Shown: positions 162 to 5,541 of the stretch, one piece after another | Layout of the letters: every line of letters starts with the position of its first letter | Numbering within the stretch: the first letter of the stretch is position 1 | Assembly (NCBI GenBank): GCA_001803565.1 | Contig: MHDQ01000057.1 | Location: 1-5,541, forward strand | Reading direction: 5' to 3' | DNA: 5,541 nucleotides | Source of the DNA: Nitrospinae bacterium RIFCSPLOWO2_12_FULL_45_22 | GTDB taxonomy: Bacteria; 2-12-FULL-45-22 | Program-made: the position numbers and the translations under genes | The notes under the pieces: generated by a model | Seen by the model: the letters and a program-made list of their open reading frames with translations, nothing else | What the model was told of the DNA's origin: nothing | Database searches by the model: none

Positions 162-1016
162 TTACTTTAATCCGGGGTTTTCTAAGTAGCGTAGCAAGTC
201 CGAATCGGGTCTTAAGACCAGCGTAGTACCGGCCGTGAAGATCTTCTCATAGGTCTCTAGCCGTCGGCTGAAGGCATAGAATTCTGGGTCCTGGCCAAAG
301 GCCTGGGCATAGATAGCAGTAGATTGGGCATCTCCAGTACCCATGAGCTTTTGACTCTTCTCATAGGCCTGGGCCAAGATGATCTCCCGTTCTTTATCAG
401 CACCGGCCCGCACCTCCCGGGCCCGCTCCTCCCCCTCGGCCCGGTAGCGCTTACCAATCCGGTTCCGTTCAGCCTGCATCCGGGCAAAGACACTGGCTTG
501 CACTTCCTCGGGCAGGTCGGCCCGCTTGATCCTTACATCAATAACTTCGATGCCAAAGGGGGCTGCCATCTCCCGGGTCCCGGTGGCCACTGCCTCCATG
601 ATGGATTCACGTTTTTCCCGGATAATGTCTTTAAAATTGTGTTTGCCAATCTCCTGGCGTAGTCGGGCAAAGATAATATCATCCAGCCGGGCCATGGCCC
701 CCCTTTCATCCCGTACCGTACGGAAGAATTGGAGGGGGTCTTTTATGCGCCAGCGGGAGAGATGGTCTACCGCCAATCGCTTCTTATCCAGGGTGAGATA
801 CTCACCCGGTTGGGCATCGGTCGTCAAGACCCTCTTATCGAAGCGAGTAAGGGAATGGAAGACGGGAACGCGATAATAGAACCCTGGTTCCAGTATGGTC
901 TTTATATGCCGGCCAAACTGGGTGAGGATGGCTTGCTCCCATTCGTTGATGACAAAGGCCACCTGGGAGATGACGATAAAAACCGCTATAGCCAGACCAA
1001 TAATAAGGTTTCTCAT
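162..1016 (-). CDS. hflC: HflC, SPFH-domain modulator of the FtsH protease
   Basis: HflC pairs with HflK to form a large membrane-anchored cage around the ATP-dependent protease FtsH and tunes its degradation of membrane proteins. The 284-residue product has an N-terminal membrane anchor (about residues 4-23) followed directly by the SPFH/prohibitin domain (about 24-190; note QFGR at 33-36 and EPGFYYRVP at 43-51). A charged Ala/Glu/Arg-rich helix follows at about 175-235, then the family-typical segment AQAFGQDPEFYAFSRRLETY (237-256). It is somewhat shorter than the E. coli protein, mainly in the linker regions, and looks intact. The ATG at 1014-1016 is fixed by a GGGAGGT site lying in the last codons of hflK, nine bases away. 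It is encoded 6 bases downstream of hflK, so the two are surely co-transcribed and probably translationally coupled. Family assignment is firm. Confidence 0.95.
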   Translation of the reverse strand: MRNLIIGLAIAVFIVISQVAFVINEWEQAILTQFGRHIKTILEPGFYYRVPVFHSLTRFDKRVLTTDAQPGEYLTLDKKRLAVDHLSRWRIKDPLQFFRTVRDERGAMARLDDIIFARLRQEIGKHNFKDIIREKRESIMEAVATGTREMAAPFGIEVIDVRIKRADLPEEVQASVFARMQAERNRIGKRYRAEGEERAREVRAGADKEREIILAQAYEKSQKLMGTGDAQSTAIYAQAFGQDPEFYAFSRRLETYEKIFTAGTTLVLRPDSDLLRYLENPGLK

Positions 1017-1022
1017 TATAAA

Positions 1023-2099
1023 TTACCTCCCTTCATTTTCTATAGGTAATGTCTCTTTTGCCTTTTCCGGGGTCGTAGGAGGGATTAGCTCCCTCAAGGG
1101 AAGTATGGGTAAGACCCCCCTTCCCTTCTCTCCCCCAGTGTCCAGGATGAACTTTTGCGTTGCTGGCAGAATTCGTTCTATACTCTCCAGGTAGAGGCGG
1201 TCTCTAGTTACTTCTTTGGCCTTCTGATACTCTTCTAACAACTTGAGGAACCTGGCCGCATTGCCTTGAGAGCGGATTACGCGTTGCTCCTTGTAAGCCT
1301 CGGCCTTCCGGAGCATCTCAGCCGCCTCCCCCCGGGCCTTGGGCACTACATCCTCCCGGTACCCCTCTGCCTCTCTCATCAGCCGTTCCCGGTCTTCCCA
1401 GGCCCTTACTACATCGTGGAAGGCATCCCTTACCTCCCGGGGCGGGTCTACTACCAGCAGCCGCGCCTCGGTGACCAATAGCCCGGTCTGATAGGTATCA
1501 AGGAGGTTCTGTAAATAGCTCTTTGCCTTCTCCTGCACCACTACCCGGCCTTCCGTCATAGTATAATCAATAGTATTCTGGCCTACTACACCCCGCAGGG
1601 CTACCTCGGTCGAGGCCCGCAAAACCTCTTCCGGATTACGTGTCCGGAAGAGATACTTTACCGGGTCTTGTACCAGGTACTGGACGAAGAGTTGGACATC
1701 AACAATATTCTCATCCCCGGTAAGCATCAGGGACTCTTCAAAGACTGGTTGGGTAGCACTAGTAGGGCCCTCGGCAACCGTACGGAAGCCGACCTCAGCC
1801 CGTCTCACCCGGGCAATGTCTACTACATTATGGGCCTGGATAGGCCAGGGTAGCCGGTAGCGCAGCCCCGGGTCAGTCTGGGTTATTACCCTGCCAAATA
1901 AGAGCACCACACCTCGTTCGCCCGGGCCTACCATATAAAGCCCCGAGGCTAGCCAGACAAGCAGTACAATAACCAGGATAAGCCAGCCGAGCTTCCCGGT
2001 ACCCCATTGCTTCAGCCGTTCCAGGATGTTCACCAGACCTGGTGGGAGTCTGAAATCTTCCAAAGGAGATGTATCCCTCGGGAACCGTTTCTGATCCAT
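1023..2099 (-). CDS. hflK: HflK, SPFH-domain modulator of the FtsH protease
   Basis: HflK is the partner of HflC in the HflKC membrane assembly that surrounds FtsH. The 358-residue product starts with a polar N-terminal tail, then one membrane segment (about residues 37-56), then the SPFH domain (about 57-235, including ERGVVLLFGR at 61-70 and PGLRYRLPWPI at 77-87). A long helical region follows with HflK hallmarks: PREVRDAFHDVVRAWEDRER at 220-239, then VVPKARGEA, and the TRDRLYLES segment at 298-306. The Gly-rich N-terminal tail of enterobacterial HflK is lacking, as is usual in many other phyla. The start is the ATG at 2097-2099, preceded by a purine-rich GGGGGGA about seven bases upstream. 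The gene follows a crotonase fragment by 15 bases, so its original upstream region appears to have been rearranged. Family assignment is firm. Confidence 0.95.
   Translation of the reverse strand: MDQKRFPRDTSPLEDFRLPPGLVNILERLKQWGTGKLGWLILVIVLLVWLASGLYMVGPGERGVVLLFGRVITQTDPGLRYRLPWPIQAHNVVDIARVRRAEVGFRTVAEGPTSATQPVFEESLMLTGDENIVDVQLFVQYLVQDPVKYLFRTRNPEEVLRASTEVALRGVVGQNTIDYTMTEGRVVVQEKAKSYLQNLLDTYQTGLLVTEARLLVVDPPREVRDAFHDVVRAWEDRERLMREAEGYREDVVPKARGEAAEMLRKAEAYKEQRVIRSQGNAARFLKLLEEYQKAKEVTRDRLYLESIERILPATQKFILDTGGEKGRGVLPILPLRELIPPTTPEKAKETLPIENEGR
1025..1032 (-). promoter_or_regulatory. hflC ribosome-binding site made from the end of hflK
   Basis: The Shine-Dalgarno sequence AGGGAGGT is built from the last two sense codons of hflK (GGG AGG) and the first base of its TAA stop. 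The hflC ATG follows after about nine bases. Ribosomes finishing HflK therefore terminate on the hflC initiation site, an arrangement that favours coupled, near-equal synthesis of the two subunits of an equimolar complex. Confidence 0.8.
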
Positions 2100-2114: not shown

Positions 2115-2264
2115 CTATAGTGTTATACTGAAGGCATTAAGCTTTTCGGGTCGGTTGAAAGCAATCCGTCCTACCCAACCCTCCATCTCTGTATGTTGTT
2201 TCTTCTTATAGATGATGTGGTCAAACTCAAAACCCTCCACCTTCTGCCAGGGTGTCAATCCCAT
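2115..2264 (-). pseudogene. Truncated crotonase-family (enoyl-CoA hydratase-like) N-terminus
   Basis: This 49-codon frame encodes the opening of a crotonase-fold acyl-CoA enzyme. The run WVGRIAFNRPEKLNAFS (residues 30-46) matches the hallmark first strand and N-R-P-x-x-x-N-A motif of enoyl-CoA hydratases/isomerases. Intact members run to roughly 250-300 residues, and the oxyanion-hole and catalytic regions are all missing. A TAG stop comes right after FSITL, where a normal protein would continue into the first long helix. The ATG at 2262-2264 is preferred over an upstream TTG at 2307-2309 because AAGGAGGGA lies six bases before it. Only 15 bases separate the stop from hflK, so the rest of the gene has been removed, not merely frameshifted. 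It could still be translated as a short leader coupling into hflK. I call it a gene remnant; the exact acyl-CoA substrate of the parent is not recognisable. Confidence 0.75.
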
Positions 2265-2270
2265 CACAAA

Positions 2271-2279
2271 TCCCTCCTT
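2271..2279 (-). promoter_or_regulatory. Strong ribosome-binding site before the crotonase fragment
   Basis: AAGGAGGGA followed six bases later by ATG is the best Shine-Dalgarno match between the radical SAM genes and hflK. It decides the start of the fragment at 2264 over the TTG-initiated longer reading. Its preservation in front of a fragment without a catalytic domain suggests a recent truncation, or a retained role in bringing ribosomes to the hflK transcript. Confidence 0.65.
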
Positions 2280-2308
2280 ATTAATCAGGTTAAAGATTAA
2301 AGATTCCA

Positions 2309-3678
2309 AATAAACCGATCAACTATTTCTTCTCATTAATGATCTAAATAGATAAACTAACATTCCTTTTATCCCGGAATTGAGCCGGAACAACCCAATG
2401 GAATAGGTTTTTCGGGCTATTTTTAGGCACTGAAGGGGGGTATAAAAGCGCTTGTAAATCCGTTTCCTAATTCTCTTCAGCTCTTTCTTACCATATTTTT
2501 GAGAATAGATCCCATTGTCTGCCCCTATGTAATATCCATTAGTATCCTTAATGACAGCGTTCAGGGGAGAATATTTCTCGGTCCTGAGTATGCTTAAGTC
2601 CATGGTATCAGTCCCTATCTCTTTAGCAAAACCGCTGATTTTCATCATATCTTCCTCGTTCTCTCCGATATTACCTACGATGAAAAAGCTATGGATATGA
2701 AAATTATATTTGGTTATGATTTGAAATGCCTTGCGCACATAAGAGATATCAAATCCCTTATTAATCTCCTTCAGGGTCTTATCCTTTGCCGATTCTATCC
2801 CAAAGCTTAAAATTCTAAAACCTGCCTCATACATCTTCTTTAAAATATCGGGCCTTTCACATATCTCTAACCGCAAGGTTAGCATAAATAACTTCCTTAT
2901 ACCTTCCTCCTGGATCAAATGGCATATCTGCTCCACCCTCTCTAAATCTACGGCAAAATTGTCGTCCACAAACATTATCATCTCAGCTTCTATGGTCTTC
3001 AACTCGGCTATCACTGATTCAGGGGACCTTCCCGACCAGGGCCTCTTCTCCCCCAGGGGGTTTTTACTGAAGGTACAAAATTTACAGGAAAAGGGACATC
3101 CCCTTGAGGTCGCCATAAAATCGATATTGTAGCCAAGATACATCCCCTTGAAGGATAGACGATATTTATTCCGCCTCAGTTTTCTGAGGGGGAAGATTGT
3201 ATCACTCAAGGAGGTTAGTTTACGTGAGGGATTGTGAATCACCTTAGTACCGTTTTTATAGGAAATGCCTGTTATATCTTCAACCGCAACATCCTCAACC
3301 AGTTCCCTGATGATCTCCTCTCCATCGCCCCTCACTATTACATCTATTGCCGGGTAGTCCTGGAAAAGCTCTTCCACATAAATCGTTGCGGTTCTCCCTC
3401 CCACAACCAAGGTTTTATCCCTGGGGATTCGGTCTATTAGCGCTCCCAGGGCAGCTTTTTCCCGGGGCCAGTTGACACTTATACATACTAGATCTGTGTC
3501 TCCCATTAGATATTGCATAAAATTCCTATTAAATCTCATATCTACCAGGGTTATATCCCCGACCGACCCCTCCATGGAGGCGGCAATATATTCCAGGCCC
3601 AGAGGGGGGGCATATTCTTTCTTGGCATGTCCTTCTTCGTAAGGGAAGACACAGACAGCATGGTTATATTTCACCATA
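2309..3678. repeat. Direct repeat, left copy (1370 bp, gene-sized duplication)
   Basis: This segment aligns without gaps to 3847-5216 at a constant offset of 1538. I counted about 84 mismatches by eye (about 94% identity). Similarity begins 10 bases past the stop codon of the enclosed gene and ends one base before its start codon, so the repeat is almost exactly one open reading frame. No insertion-sequence ends or target-site duplications are visible at the borders. Confidence 0.95.
2319..3677 (-). CDS. B12-binding-domain radical SAM enzyme, downstream copy
   Basis: The 452-residue product is a cobalamin-binding-domain radical SAM protein. The N-terminal Rossmann-like domain (about 5-130) shows the family signatures YAPPLGLEYIAAS (22-34), VVGGRTAT (91-98) and IVRGDGEEIIREL (114-126); like many of this class it has no DxHxxG corrinoid motif. 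The radical SAM barrel (about 185-350) carries the [4Fe-4S] ligands C194, C198 and C201 in a CxxxCxxC motif (codons at 3075-3098), then VDDNF (237-241) and FGIES (292-296). The C-terminal part (about 360-452) is basic and ends in an amphipathic tail that could touch membranes. Such enzymes often methylate unactivated carbon or rearrange substrates, including lipids, natural products and bacteriochlorophyll precursors; the substrate here is unknown. The start ATG has GAGGT about ten bases upstream. It is the second gene of a tandem pair, 179 bases after the other copy. Confidence 0.9.
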   Translation of the reverse strand: MVKYNHAVCVFPYEEGHAKKEYAPPLGLEYIAASMEGSVGDITLVDMRFNRNFMQYLMGDTDLVCISVNWPREKAALGALIDRIPRDKTLVVGGRTATIYVEELFQDYPAIDVIVRGDGEEIIRELVEDVAVEDITGISYKNGTKVIHNPSRKLTSLSDTIFPLRKLRRNKYRLSFKGMYLGYNIDFMATSRGCPFSCKFCTFSKNPLGEKRPWSGRSPESVIAELKTIEAEMIMFVDDNFAVDLERVEQICHLIQEEGIRKLFMLTLRLEICERPDILKKMYEAGFRILSFGIESAKDKTLKEINKGFDISYVRKAFQIITKYNFHIHSFFIVGNIGENEEDMMKISGFAKEIGTDTMDLSILRTEKYSPLNAVIKDTNGYYIGADNGIYSQKYGKKELKRIRKRIYKRFYTPLQCLKIARKTYSIGLFRLNSGIKGMLVYLFRSLMRRNS

Positions 3679-3710
3679 ATTCAATAACCTCAAATTATTC
3701 ATTGTTTGGT

Positions 3711-3728
3711 ATGAAAACAGATTTTCAT
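3711..3728. repeat. Perfect 7-bp inverted repeat ATGAAAA/TTTTCAT
   Basis: ATGAAAA at 3711-3717 and TTTTCAT at 3722-3728 flank a 4-base loop. It lies 34 bases upstream of the start of the downstream radical SAM gene, within reach of an operator or a small RNA hairpin. The arms are A/T-rich, so the hairpin alone would be weak. Confidence 0.45.
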
Positions 3729-3738
3729 GCTTGTTGGC

Positions 3739-3752
3739 GACCCGCTAGGGTC
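3739..3752. repeat. Small GC hairpin GACCC/GGGTC
   Basis: GACCC (3739-3743) and GGGTC (3748-3752) are separated by GCTA. On the minus strand it lies between the T-rich part of the spacer and the gene start and is not followed by a T-run, so it is not a convincing terminator. It is the only G+C-rich element in the spacer. Confidence 0.4.
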
Positions 3753-3777
3753 ATGGAAGTTTTTAAAGAAAAAATAA

Positions 3778-3796
3778 CTCTTTGTGCCTTTGTGGC
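3778..3796. repeat. Half copy of a CACAAAG/CACAGAG-type repeat
   Basis: Read on the minus strand, this is GCCACAAAGGCACAAAGAG: two heptamers of CACAAAG about eight bases apart behind a CC. It resembles each arm of the palindrome at 69-109 (ACCACAGAG..CACAGAG), differing mainly in G to A at the fifth heptamer base and in one base of spacing. No opposite arm of comparable length is present, so it would be a solo half-site of the same repeat class. Confidence 0.45.
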
Positions 3797-3806
3797 TAAC
3801 ACAAGT

Positions 3807-3831
3807 TTTCATAGTATACTTTTTTATGAAA
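3807..3831. repeat. Perfect 7-bp inverted repeat TTTCATA/TATGAAA
   Basis: TTTCATA at 3807-3813 and TATGAAA at 3825-3831 enclose 11 bases. On the minus strand it begins about 26 bases after the upstream radical SAM stop codon. It uses the same ATGAAA core as the inverted repeat at 3711-3728 but in the opposite arrangement. No T-run directly follows on the minus strand, so a terminator role is not supported. Confidence 0.4.
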
Positions 3832-3846
3832 CCCTCTACCAGTCTT

Positions 3847-5216
3847 AATAAACCGATCAACTATTTCTTCTCATTAATGATCTAAATAGATAAACTAATA
3901 TCCATTTTATCCCGGAACTGAGCCGGAACAATCCAATGGAATAGTTTTTTCTGGCTATCTTTAGGCACTGAAGGGGTGTATAAAACCGATTGTGAATCCG
4001 TTTCCTAATTCTCTTCAGTTCTTTCTTCCCATATTTTTGAGAATAGACCCCATTGTCTGCCCCTATGTAATAGCCATCAGTATCCTTAATGACATCGTTC
4101 AGGGGAGAATATTTTTCGGTCCTGAGTATGCTTAAGCCCAGGGTATCAATCCCTATCTCTTTAGCAAAACCGCTGATTTTCAGCATATCTTCCTCGTTCT
4201 CTCCGATATTACCTACAATAAAATAGCTATGGATATAAAAATTATATTTGGCTATGATTTGAAAGGCCTTCCGCACAGATGAAATATCAAATCCCTTATT
4301 AATCTCCTTCAGGGTCTTATCCTTTGCCGATTCTATCCCAAAGCTTAAAATTCTAAAACCTGCCTCATACATCTTTTTTAAAATGTCGGGTCTTTCACAT
4401 ATCTCTAACCGCAAGGCTAACATCAGTAACTTCTTTATGCCTTCCGCCTGGATCAAATCACATATCTGCTCCACCCTCTCTAAATCTACGGCAAAATTGT
4501 CGTCCACAAGCATTATCATCTCAGCTTCTATGGTCTTCAACTCGGCTATCACTGATTCAGGGGACCTTCCCGACCAGGGCCTCTTCTCCCCCAGGGGGTT
4601 TTTACTGAAGGTACAAAATTTACAGGAAAAGGGACATCCCCTTGAGGTCGCCATAAAATCTATGTTGTATCCAAGGTCTATCCTCTTGAGGGATAGACAA
4701 TATTTATTCCGCCTCAGTTTTCTGAGGGGGAAGATATTGTCACTCAAGGAGGTTAGTTTACGTGGGGGATTGTGAATCACCTTATTACCATTTTTATAGG
4801 AAATTCCTGTTATATCTTCAACCGCAACATCCTCAACTAGCTCCCTGATGACCTCCTCCCCATCGCCCCGCACTATTACATCTATTGCCGGGTAGTCCCG
4901 GAAAAGCTCTTCCACATAAGTCGTTGCAGTTCTACCTCCCACAACCAAGGTTTTATCCCTGGGGATTCGGTCTATTATCGCTCCCAGGGCAGCCTTTTCC
5001 CGGTCCCAGTTGACACTTATGCATACTAGGTCTGTGTCTCCCCTTAGATATTTCATAAAATCCTTATCAAATCTCATATCTACCAGGGTTATATCCCCGA
5101 CCAACCCCTCCATGGAGGCGGCAATATATTCCAGGCCCAGAGGGGGGGCATATTCTTTCTTGGCATGTCCTTCTTCGTAAGGGAAGATACAGACAGCATG
5201 GTTATATTTCACCATA
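3847..5216. repeat. Direct repeat, right copy (1370 bp, gene-sized duplication)
   Basis: This is the partner of the segment at 2309-3678, in the same orientation and gap-free. Mismatches are unevenly spread: only one lies in the 200 bases 4461-4660, and only two in the first 138 bases of the repeat counted from the gene start, while several 60-base blocks carry seven to nine. Confidence 0.95.
3857..5215 (-). CDS. B12-binding-domain radical SAM enzyme, upstream copy
   Basis: This is a 452-residue paralogue of the gene that follows it, with 409 of 452 residues identical and no gaps. It keeps every signature: YAPPLGLEYIAAS at 22-34, the cluster ligands C194, C198 and C201 (codons at 4613-4636), VDDNF at 237-241 and FGIES at 292-296. 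Replacements cluster at 50-58 (NRNFMQYLM in the other copy, DKDFMKYLR here), at 173-180 in the linker before the cluster (R, F, G, M, Y become C, L, R, I, D), and at 253-267. Both copies look functional by motif. This copy follows htpX after 86 bases, with GGGAG about nine bases before its ATG. No substrate or partner gene is visible, so its reaction is unassigned. Two near-equal copies could form a heterodimer, act on successive carbons, or be redundant; this is inference. Confidence 0.9.
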   Translation of the reverse strand: MVKYNHAVCIFPYEEGHAKKEYAPPLGLEYIAASMEGLVGDITLVDMRFDKDFMKYLRGDTDLVCISVNWDREKAALGAIIDRIPRDKTLVVGGRTATTYVEELFRDYPAIDVIVRGDGEEVIRELVEDVAVEDITGISYKNGNKVIHNPPRKLTSLSDNIFPLRKLRRNKYCLSLKRIDLGYNIDFMATSRGCPFSCKFCTFSKNPLGEKRPWSGRSPESVIAELKTIEAEMIMLVDDNFAVDLERVEQICDLIQAEGIKKLLMLALRLEICERPDILKKMYEAGFRILSFGIESAKDKTLKEINKGFDISSVRKAFQIIAKYNFYIHSYFIVGNIGENEEDMLKISGFAKEIGIDTLGLSILRTEKYSPLNDVIKDTDGYYIGADNGVYSQKYGKKELKRIRKRIHNRFYTPLQCLKIARKNYSIGLFRLSSGIKWILVYLFRSLMRRNS

Positions 5217-5243
5217 TCTAAACACTCCCAAGGTCTTCATAAT

Positions 5244-5273
5244 AAAAAAAGTTCCTGGCTAAAGTAGGAGCCA
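5244..5273 (-). terminator. Weak terminator candidate after htpX
   Basis: On the minus strand a 5-bp stem, TGGCT (5269-5273) with AGCCA (5256-5260) around an 8-base loop, is followed after five bases by a run of seven T. It lies about 29 bases past the htpX stop. The stem is short and the T-run not immediate, so termination would be partial at best; it may instead be chance. Confidence 0.3.
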
Positions 5274-5286
5274 TCGTGGAGGACCT

Positions 5287-5301
5287 CTTTAAGTCTTAAA
5301 G
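5287..5301. repeat. 15-bp palindrome directly after the htpX stop codon
   Basis: CTTTAAG and CTTAAAG, 7-bp perfect arms around a single central base, abut the htpX stop. With no loop room it cannot form a good RNA hairpin, so if meaningful it would be a protein-binding site in DNA ahead of the radical SAM pair. Confidence 0.35.
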
Positions 5302-5541
5302 CTACCTTATCCTGCCAGCCATCTGCTCCAGCCTCTCTACCCTCTCTTCTATTGGGGGATGGGTACTGAAAAGTTTCATTAACCCACCACCGGTTAAGGG
5401 GTTGACAATAAACATATGGGCAGTAGCCGGGTTGGCTTCCATCGGGGTTAATTGCACTCCTCTCTGCAATTTTTTCAAAGCCGCGGCCAGATAGAGGGGA
5501 TTGCCTGATATACTTGCCCCGCCCGCATCGGCCAGGTATTC
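5302..5541 (-). CDS. htpX: HtpX-type membrane zinc protease, C-terminal part
   Basis: The last 79 codons of an M48-family membrane metalloprotease are present; the rest lies beyond the window edge. The frame opens with EYLADAGGA, matching the conserved R-E-x-x-A-D-x-x-G-A block of HtpX, so the very first visible residue is the probable third zinc ligand (Glu). It continues with [15 protein letters not shown], then [13 protein letters not shown], and ends with the family-typical tail [18 protein letters not shown] before TAG at 5302-5304. The HExxH motif and membrane helices are outside the window. HtpX degrades misfolded inner-membrane proteins and overlaps functionally with FtsH, so its place upstream of hflKC fits a membrane quality-control neighbourhood. 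The match to the C-terminus of the family is strong. Confidence 0.9.

Follow-up and report, generated by a model that had tools for sequence, protein, structure and literature searches.

A probably young tandem duplication in an undescribed subfamily of putative cobalamin-dependent radical SAM enzymes from a Nitrospinae genome

The window (the whole stretch of DNA analysed, 5541 bases, which is the entire contig C57 of a 3.67-Mb draft assembly of 321 contigs, 85% complete) carries two adjacent genes, here called copy A and copy B, that probably arose by a tandem duplication both young and confined to this lineage. The duplicated gene would encode a radical SAM enzyme of the class-1 cobalamin-dependent kind, with radical C-methylation as its most likely activity. 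The duplication is ordinary in itself. Few enzymes of the large B12-radical-SAM class have a known substrate, and the value of the locus is that it defines an undescribed subfamily of this class with a TokK-like lower-face tryptophan and a testable lead to a target, the helicase neighbourhood described below. All genes of the window are co-directional, in the order htpX-like 3' end, copy B, copy A, menB-like remnant, hflK and hflC, and its features are as follows:

162 to 1016, minus strand: hflC, a single-copy flank (NCBIfam score above cut-off)
1023 to 2099, minus strand: hflK, a single-copy flank (NCBIfam score above cut-off)
2115 to 2309, minus strand: open reading frame of 64 amino acids, apparent menB-like crotonase N-terminal remnant (weak match)
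2309 to 3678, unstranded: repeat unit that contains copy A, with 94% identity to 3847-5216
2319 to 3677, minus strand: copy A, B12-binding/radical SAM protein of 452 amino acids, intact, the faster-diverging copy
3752 to 3844, unstranded: about half of a dispersed palindromic element of about 180 nucleotides, delimited by genome matches and aligned copies
3847 to 5216, unstranded: repeat unit around copy B, 94% identical to 2309-3678
3857 to 5215, minus strand: copy B, B12-binding/radical SAM protein of 452 amino acids, intact, the slower copy, with an AlphaFold2 model
5302 to 5541, minus strand: htpX-like M48 protease gene, truncated at the contig end so that only its 3' part is present (Pfam and NCBIfam profiles)

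The two copies, each of 452 codons on the same strand, are offset by exactly 1538 bases and align over 2309-3678 with 84 mismatches, zero gaps and 43 residue differences, exactly the hand count of the original prediction. The differences fall at codon positions 1, 2 and 3 in the numbers 27, 17 and 40, and the estimated divergence (dN 0.044 and dS 0.147 by NG86; dN 0.047 and dS 0.119 by YN00) gives a dN/dS of about 0.3-0.4. No other copies were found by BLAST of the same genome, which holds about 26 further homologues that are only 24-31% identical. Foreign origin was considered on the basis of composition and rejected, the copies having 42.5% G+C, close to the 43.2% of sampled loci of the genome; the compositional outlier of the window is hflCK, at 54-55% G+C.

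Both proteins belong to the radical SAM superfamily (PF04055, E 1e-20 and 2e-18) and have a B12-binding domain (PF02310, 35.8 and 41.7 bits, cut-off 32.1), and all catalytic motifs are retained in both copies, as had been read in the original prediction. None of the NCBIfam equivalogs scored (HpnJ, BchE, HpnR, MgmA, AprD4 and others) comes near its cut-off. The best named profiles, HpnJ (TIGR03471; 126.1 and 116.5 bits, cut-off 577.6) and BchE (TIGR02026; 111.2 and 113.2 bits, cut-off 481.35), likewise combine B12-binding with radical SAM domains, but their scores are far too low and the window has neither hopanoid nor bacteriochlorophyll genes. MgmA/TIGR04014 (69.8 and 71.5 bits, cut-off 360) and AprD4 (NF033070; 38.5 and 33 bits, cut-off 500) were also rejected.

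Modelled with AlphaFold2 (pLDDT 88.5, pTM 0.86), copy B matches solved structures over nearly its whole length, the best being AprD4 (Z 30.2), OxsB (27.5), CysS (26.9), MgmA (26.8) and TsrM (25.1), and it also matches TokK over the whole length. All five are cobalamin enzymes except AprD4, a diol dehydratase without a known cobalamin requirement. That this radical SAM enzyme (6fd2) is the top structural match, over 399 residues, weighs against the methyltransferase reading; it is only 16% identical. Methyl-coenzyme M reductase glutamine C-methylase, MgmA (9ccb), is the top phmmer hit among PDB sequences (E 4e-11) and has the best Foldseek E-value, but shares only 20-22% identity and in a profile alignment lacks a tryptophan at the lower-face position. 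TokK and CysS share with the subfamily a Rossmann B12 domain and radical SAM core, the whole-length fold (Z 19-27) and a tryptophan in the loop after strand 3, but are only about 17% identical, and they belong to biosynthetic clusters for antibiotics, where their substrates are pantetheinylated, whereas no such cluster is found at copies A and B.

In an alignment of 114 rows, Cys194, Cys198 and Cys201 of the CxxxCxxC motif are invariant (114/114), and 113 rows have Trp70, which lies just after strand 3. Profile alignment places Trp70 at Trp76 of TokK, which has an extra residue before it, and at the equivalent tryptophan of CysS. Trp76 of TokK lies under the cobalt and is unable to act as a ligand, and the same is indicated for CysS by alignment (review, PMC13331322). 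From this one aligned residue and the Pfam match we infer cobalamin binding, and because Trp70 aligns with a tryptophan that lies under cobalt, radical C-methylation is the best guess at the activity; likeness of fold alone does not show the reaction, and the steps that follow go beyond sequence and fold. Each protein would bind SAM on a [4Fe-4S] cluster held by CxxxCxxC and cobalamin in the Rossmann domain at its N-terminus, where Trp70 would lie below the cobalt like its counterparts in TokK and CysS; one SAM would serve to make methylcobalamin, and a second to generate the carbon radical that receives the methyl group.

Relatives at 41-51% identity are found in metagenome-assembled genomes (MAGs) of Phycisphaerae, Omnitrophota, Desulfobacterota, Aminicenantes, Verrucomicrobia, Nitrospirae and others, beyond which identity falls to 32%. 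The subfamily is present in 35 of 397 sampled genomes of the class Phycisphaerae (class of G060), 67 of 384 of the phylum Omnitrophota (G061) and 18 of 395 of the phylum Desulfobacterota (G062), as a single copy in most of the genomes that have it, and is absent from the one other genome examined of the phylum to which the window belongs. Nothing specific to it was found in the literature. The subfamily is unnamed, undescribed and widely scattered, although the kind of enzyme is recognisable.

A maximum likelihood tree of the 114 rows (quick method, SH-aLRT support only) makes copies A and B sisters with support of 100, on a stem of 0.47 with tips of 0.072 (A) and 0.031 (B); the nearest rows are L196, L197 and L206:1473. 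The copies therefore group by genome, with no separate A and B clades across species, so that the duplication, or the last conversion, was recent. Sequence and tree together show both copies to be intact in-paralogues under purifying constraint. Directly adjacent pairs recur in only 2 of about 120 genomes, and their phylogenetic make-up is different each time: in G060 (L044) the members are 75% identical and close but not sister, and in G437 (L202:4400-7217) they are 41.9% identical and belong to two deep clades. Two clades are also represented 2.5 kb apart on one contig of G840, and two in-paralogues about 9.5 kb apart in G717. Adjacency is thus rare and has been assembled in different ways.

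Comparison with the nearest relatives and with the family gave a direction to the residue changes between the copies. Of 37 assignable changes, 25 are on copy A and 12 on copy B (one-sided binomial, 0.02), or 19 and 9 when only firm calls are counted, which puts the rate of change of copy A at about twice that of copy B. It alone departs from the family at the near-invariant positions D253 (to H) and Y331 (to F). This asymmetry would fit a new role as well as relaxed constraint. At present the pair may serve to raise dosage, while copy A is possibly on its way to another substrate, and the data are compatible with dosage and drift alike.

The original prediction had drawn attention to the tight limits of the repeat, and these hold: the similar stretch reaches from about 10 bases beyond the stop codons to 1-3 bases ahead of the starts. 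The flanks (2100-2307, 3681-3845 and 5219-5301) are no more like one another, in either orientation, than shuffled sequence, even though copied flanks would be expected to remain plainly recognisable at 12-15% synonymous divergence. The spacer stretch 3752-3844 is 80-90% identical to at least 8 further sites of the genome (C277:4658-4748, C265:1-91, C115:191-286, C132:10514-10597, and on C125, C239, C273 and C8). Aligned copies reveal a palindromic element of about 180 nucleotides with halves that are inverted repeats of each other and a predicted hairpin of -49.9 kcal/mol; about half of this MITE-like dispersed element is in the window, ending about 3 bases before the repeat of copy B. Repeats of CACAGAG/CTCTGTG at 71-107, downstream of hflC, are similar in kind to the CACAAAG motifs that this element has in the spacer. 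On the other side of copy A, the 64-residue open reading frame, which had no match in a Pfam search, matches residues 12-50 of the 302 of 1,4-dihydroxy-2-naphthoyl-CoA synthase (E 2e-6). This menB-like remnant starts at the end of the copy A repeat and stops about 16 bases before hflK, and no other DNA match that could be its source was found in the same genome.

The element and the remnant point to turnover of the flanks, and copying of a near-bare frame is compatible with them as well. Accordingly, of the two origins originally proposed for the tight limits, replacement of the flanks gains from the element, the remnant and the non-homologous flanks, while arrival of a bare frame also fits. 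The duplicate may have covered little beyond the frame, or its flanks may later have been replaced, the agents being the inserted palindromic element and a gene turnover that left the menB-like remnant; insertion alone, however, would leave copied flanks in place.

The same boundaries could be explained by an old tandem pair with gene conversion limited to the frames, which would leave saturated flanks around genes 94% identical. The lack of similarity in the flanks at a dS of only 0.12-0.15 favours this, as does the longest identical run between the copies, 151 bases, which exceeds what uniform scatter would give (p 0.003). The run spans the conserved CxxxCxxC region, however, and when synonymous changes alone are counted the longest gap is unremarkable (p 0.10), leaving patchy gene conversion unsupported; moreover, the A/B pair is found in no other lineage that could show its age. 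Conversion of an old pair is thus considered unlikely, and the adjacency is still less likely to be an artefact of assembly, in which two separate loci were joined at the dispersed repeat of the spacer. The contig is only 5541 bases long and the 93-nucleotide stretch resembles at least 8 other places, but a typical short read would be longer than that stretch, whose likeness to the others of only about 85% offers no easy join, and the copies are told apart by 84 sites and by their flanks. Even were the adjacency an artefact, the duplication would be real.

The two-enzyme chemistry originally suggested, in which A and B are a maintained unit performing different steps on one substrate, can be argued from the intactness of both copies and from the changes peculiar to the faster copy A. 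It also has precedents in RiPP pathways with several B12-radical-SAM methylases (PoyB/PoyC; three in bottromycin), where several enzymes of the class act in one organism from genes in RiPP operons (PMC5682303), though no RiPP operon was found at A/B. A further point in its favour is that two Lokiarchaeota MAGs have a tandem pair of a related subfamily (L068:3338-6356 and L070:4923-7929) with copies that are orthologous across species at 61-67% identity and only 41-43% alike within a genome, apparently an old maintained pair in contrast to A and B. Since A and B are sisters, they are in-paralogues and not an old two-enzyme unit; the subfamily is mostly single-copy, the other adjacent pairs are unrelated events, and no conserved pathway genes surround the subfamily gene. 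A maintained unit is therefore improbable, and a young duplication remains the preferred reading.

Clustering of neighbours over 106 subfamily loci yielded two recurrent families, DEAD-box RNA helicases and, less often, RRM proteins, beyond which no conserved pathway neighbourhood was found. Among 62 subfamily-bearing genomes of the Omnitrophota, 48 have the DEAD-box helicase, nearly always once, and 12 of these 48 have it no more than 600 bp from the subfamily gene, against about 0.1 expected by random placement, a count that is inflated by shared ancestry and for which no probability is claimed. The helicase is upstream in 3, downstream in 6 and convergent in 3, a variety of arrangement that speaks against inheritance from one event. 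Helicase-adjacent loci include L045, L046, L054, L155, L174 and L206, and the gene of a small RRM RNA-binding protein lies beside the subfamily gene at L169, L195, L218 and L219, including the two nearest relatives. The short contig of the window has no helicase neighbour. The proximity suggests a link to RNA or cold stress, and because genes for DEAD-box RNA helicases and RRM proteins recur near the subfamily gene, there is a small chance that the subfamily modifies RNA or an RNA-binding protein in a cold- or RNA-stress response, with copy A moving to a second target. Synteny with hflK was sought in five other genomes, in which the gene is either missing or lies on a different contig. A lead to lipids from FabF, FabG and FabZ near four loci was rejected, the contexts being unlike; in two Omnitrophota MAGs, a FabF-FabG-(ACP)-FabZ set follows the subfamily gene (L045:5001-10424 and L057:4998-11320).
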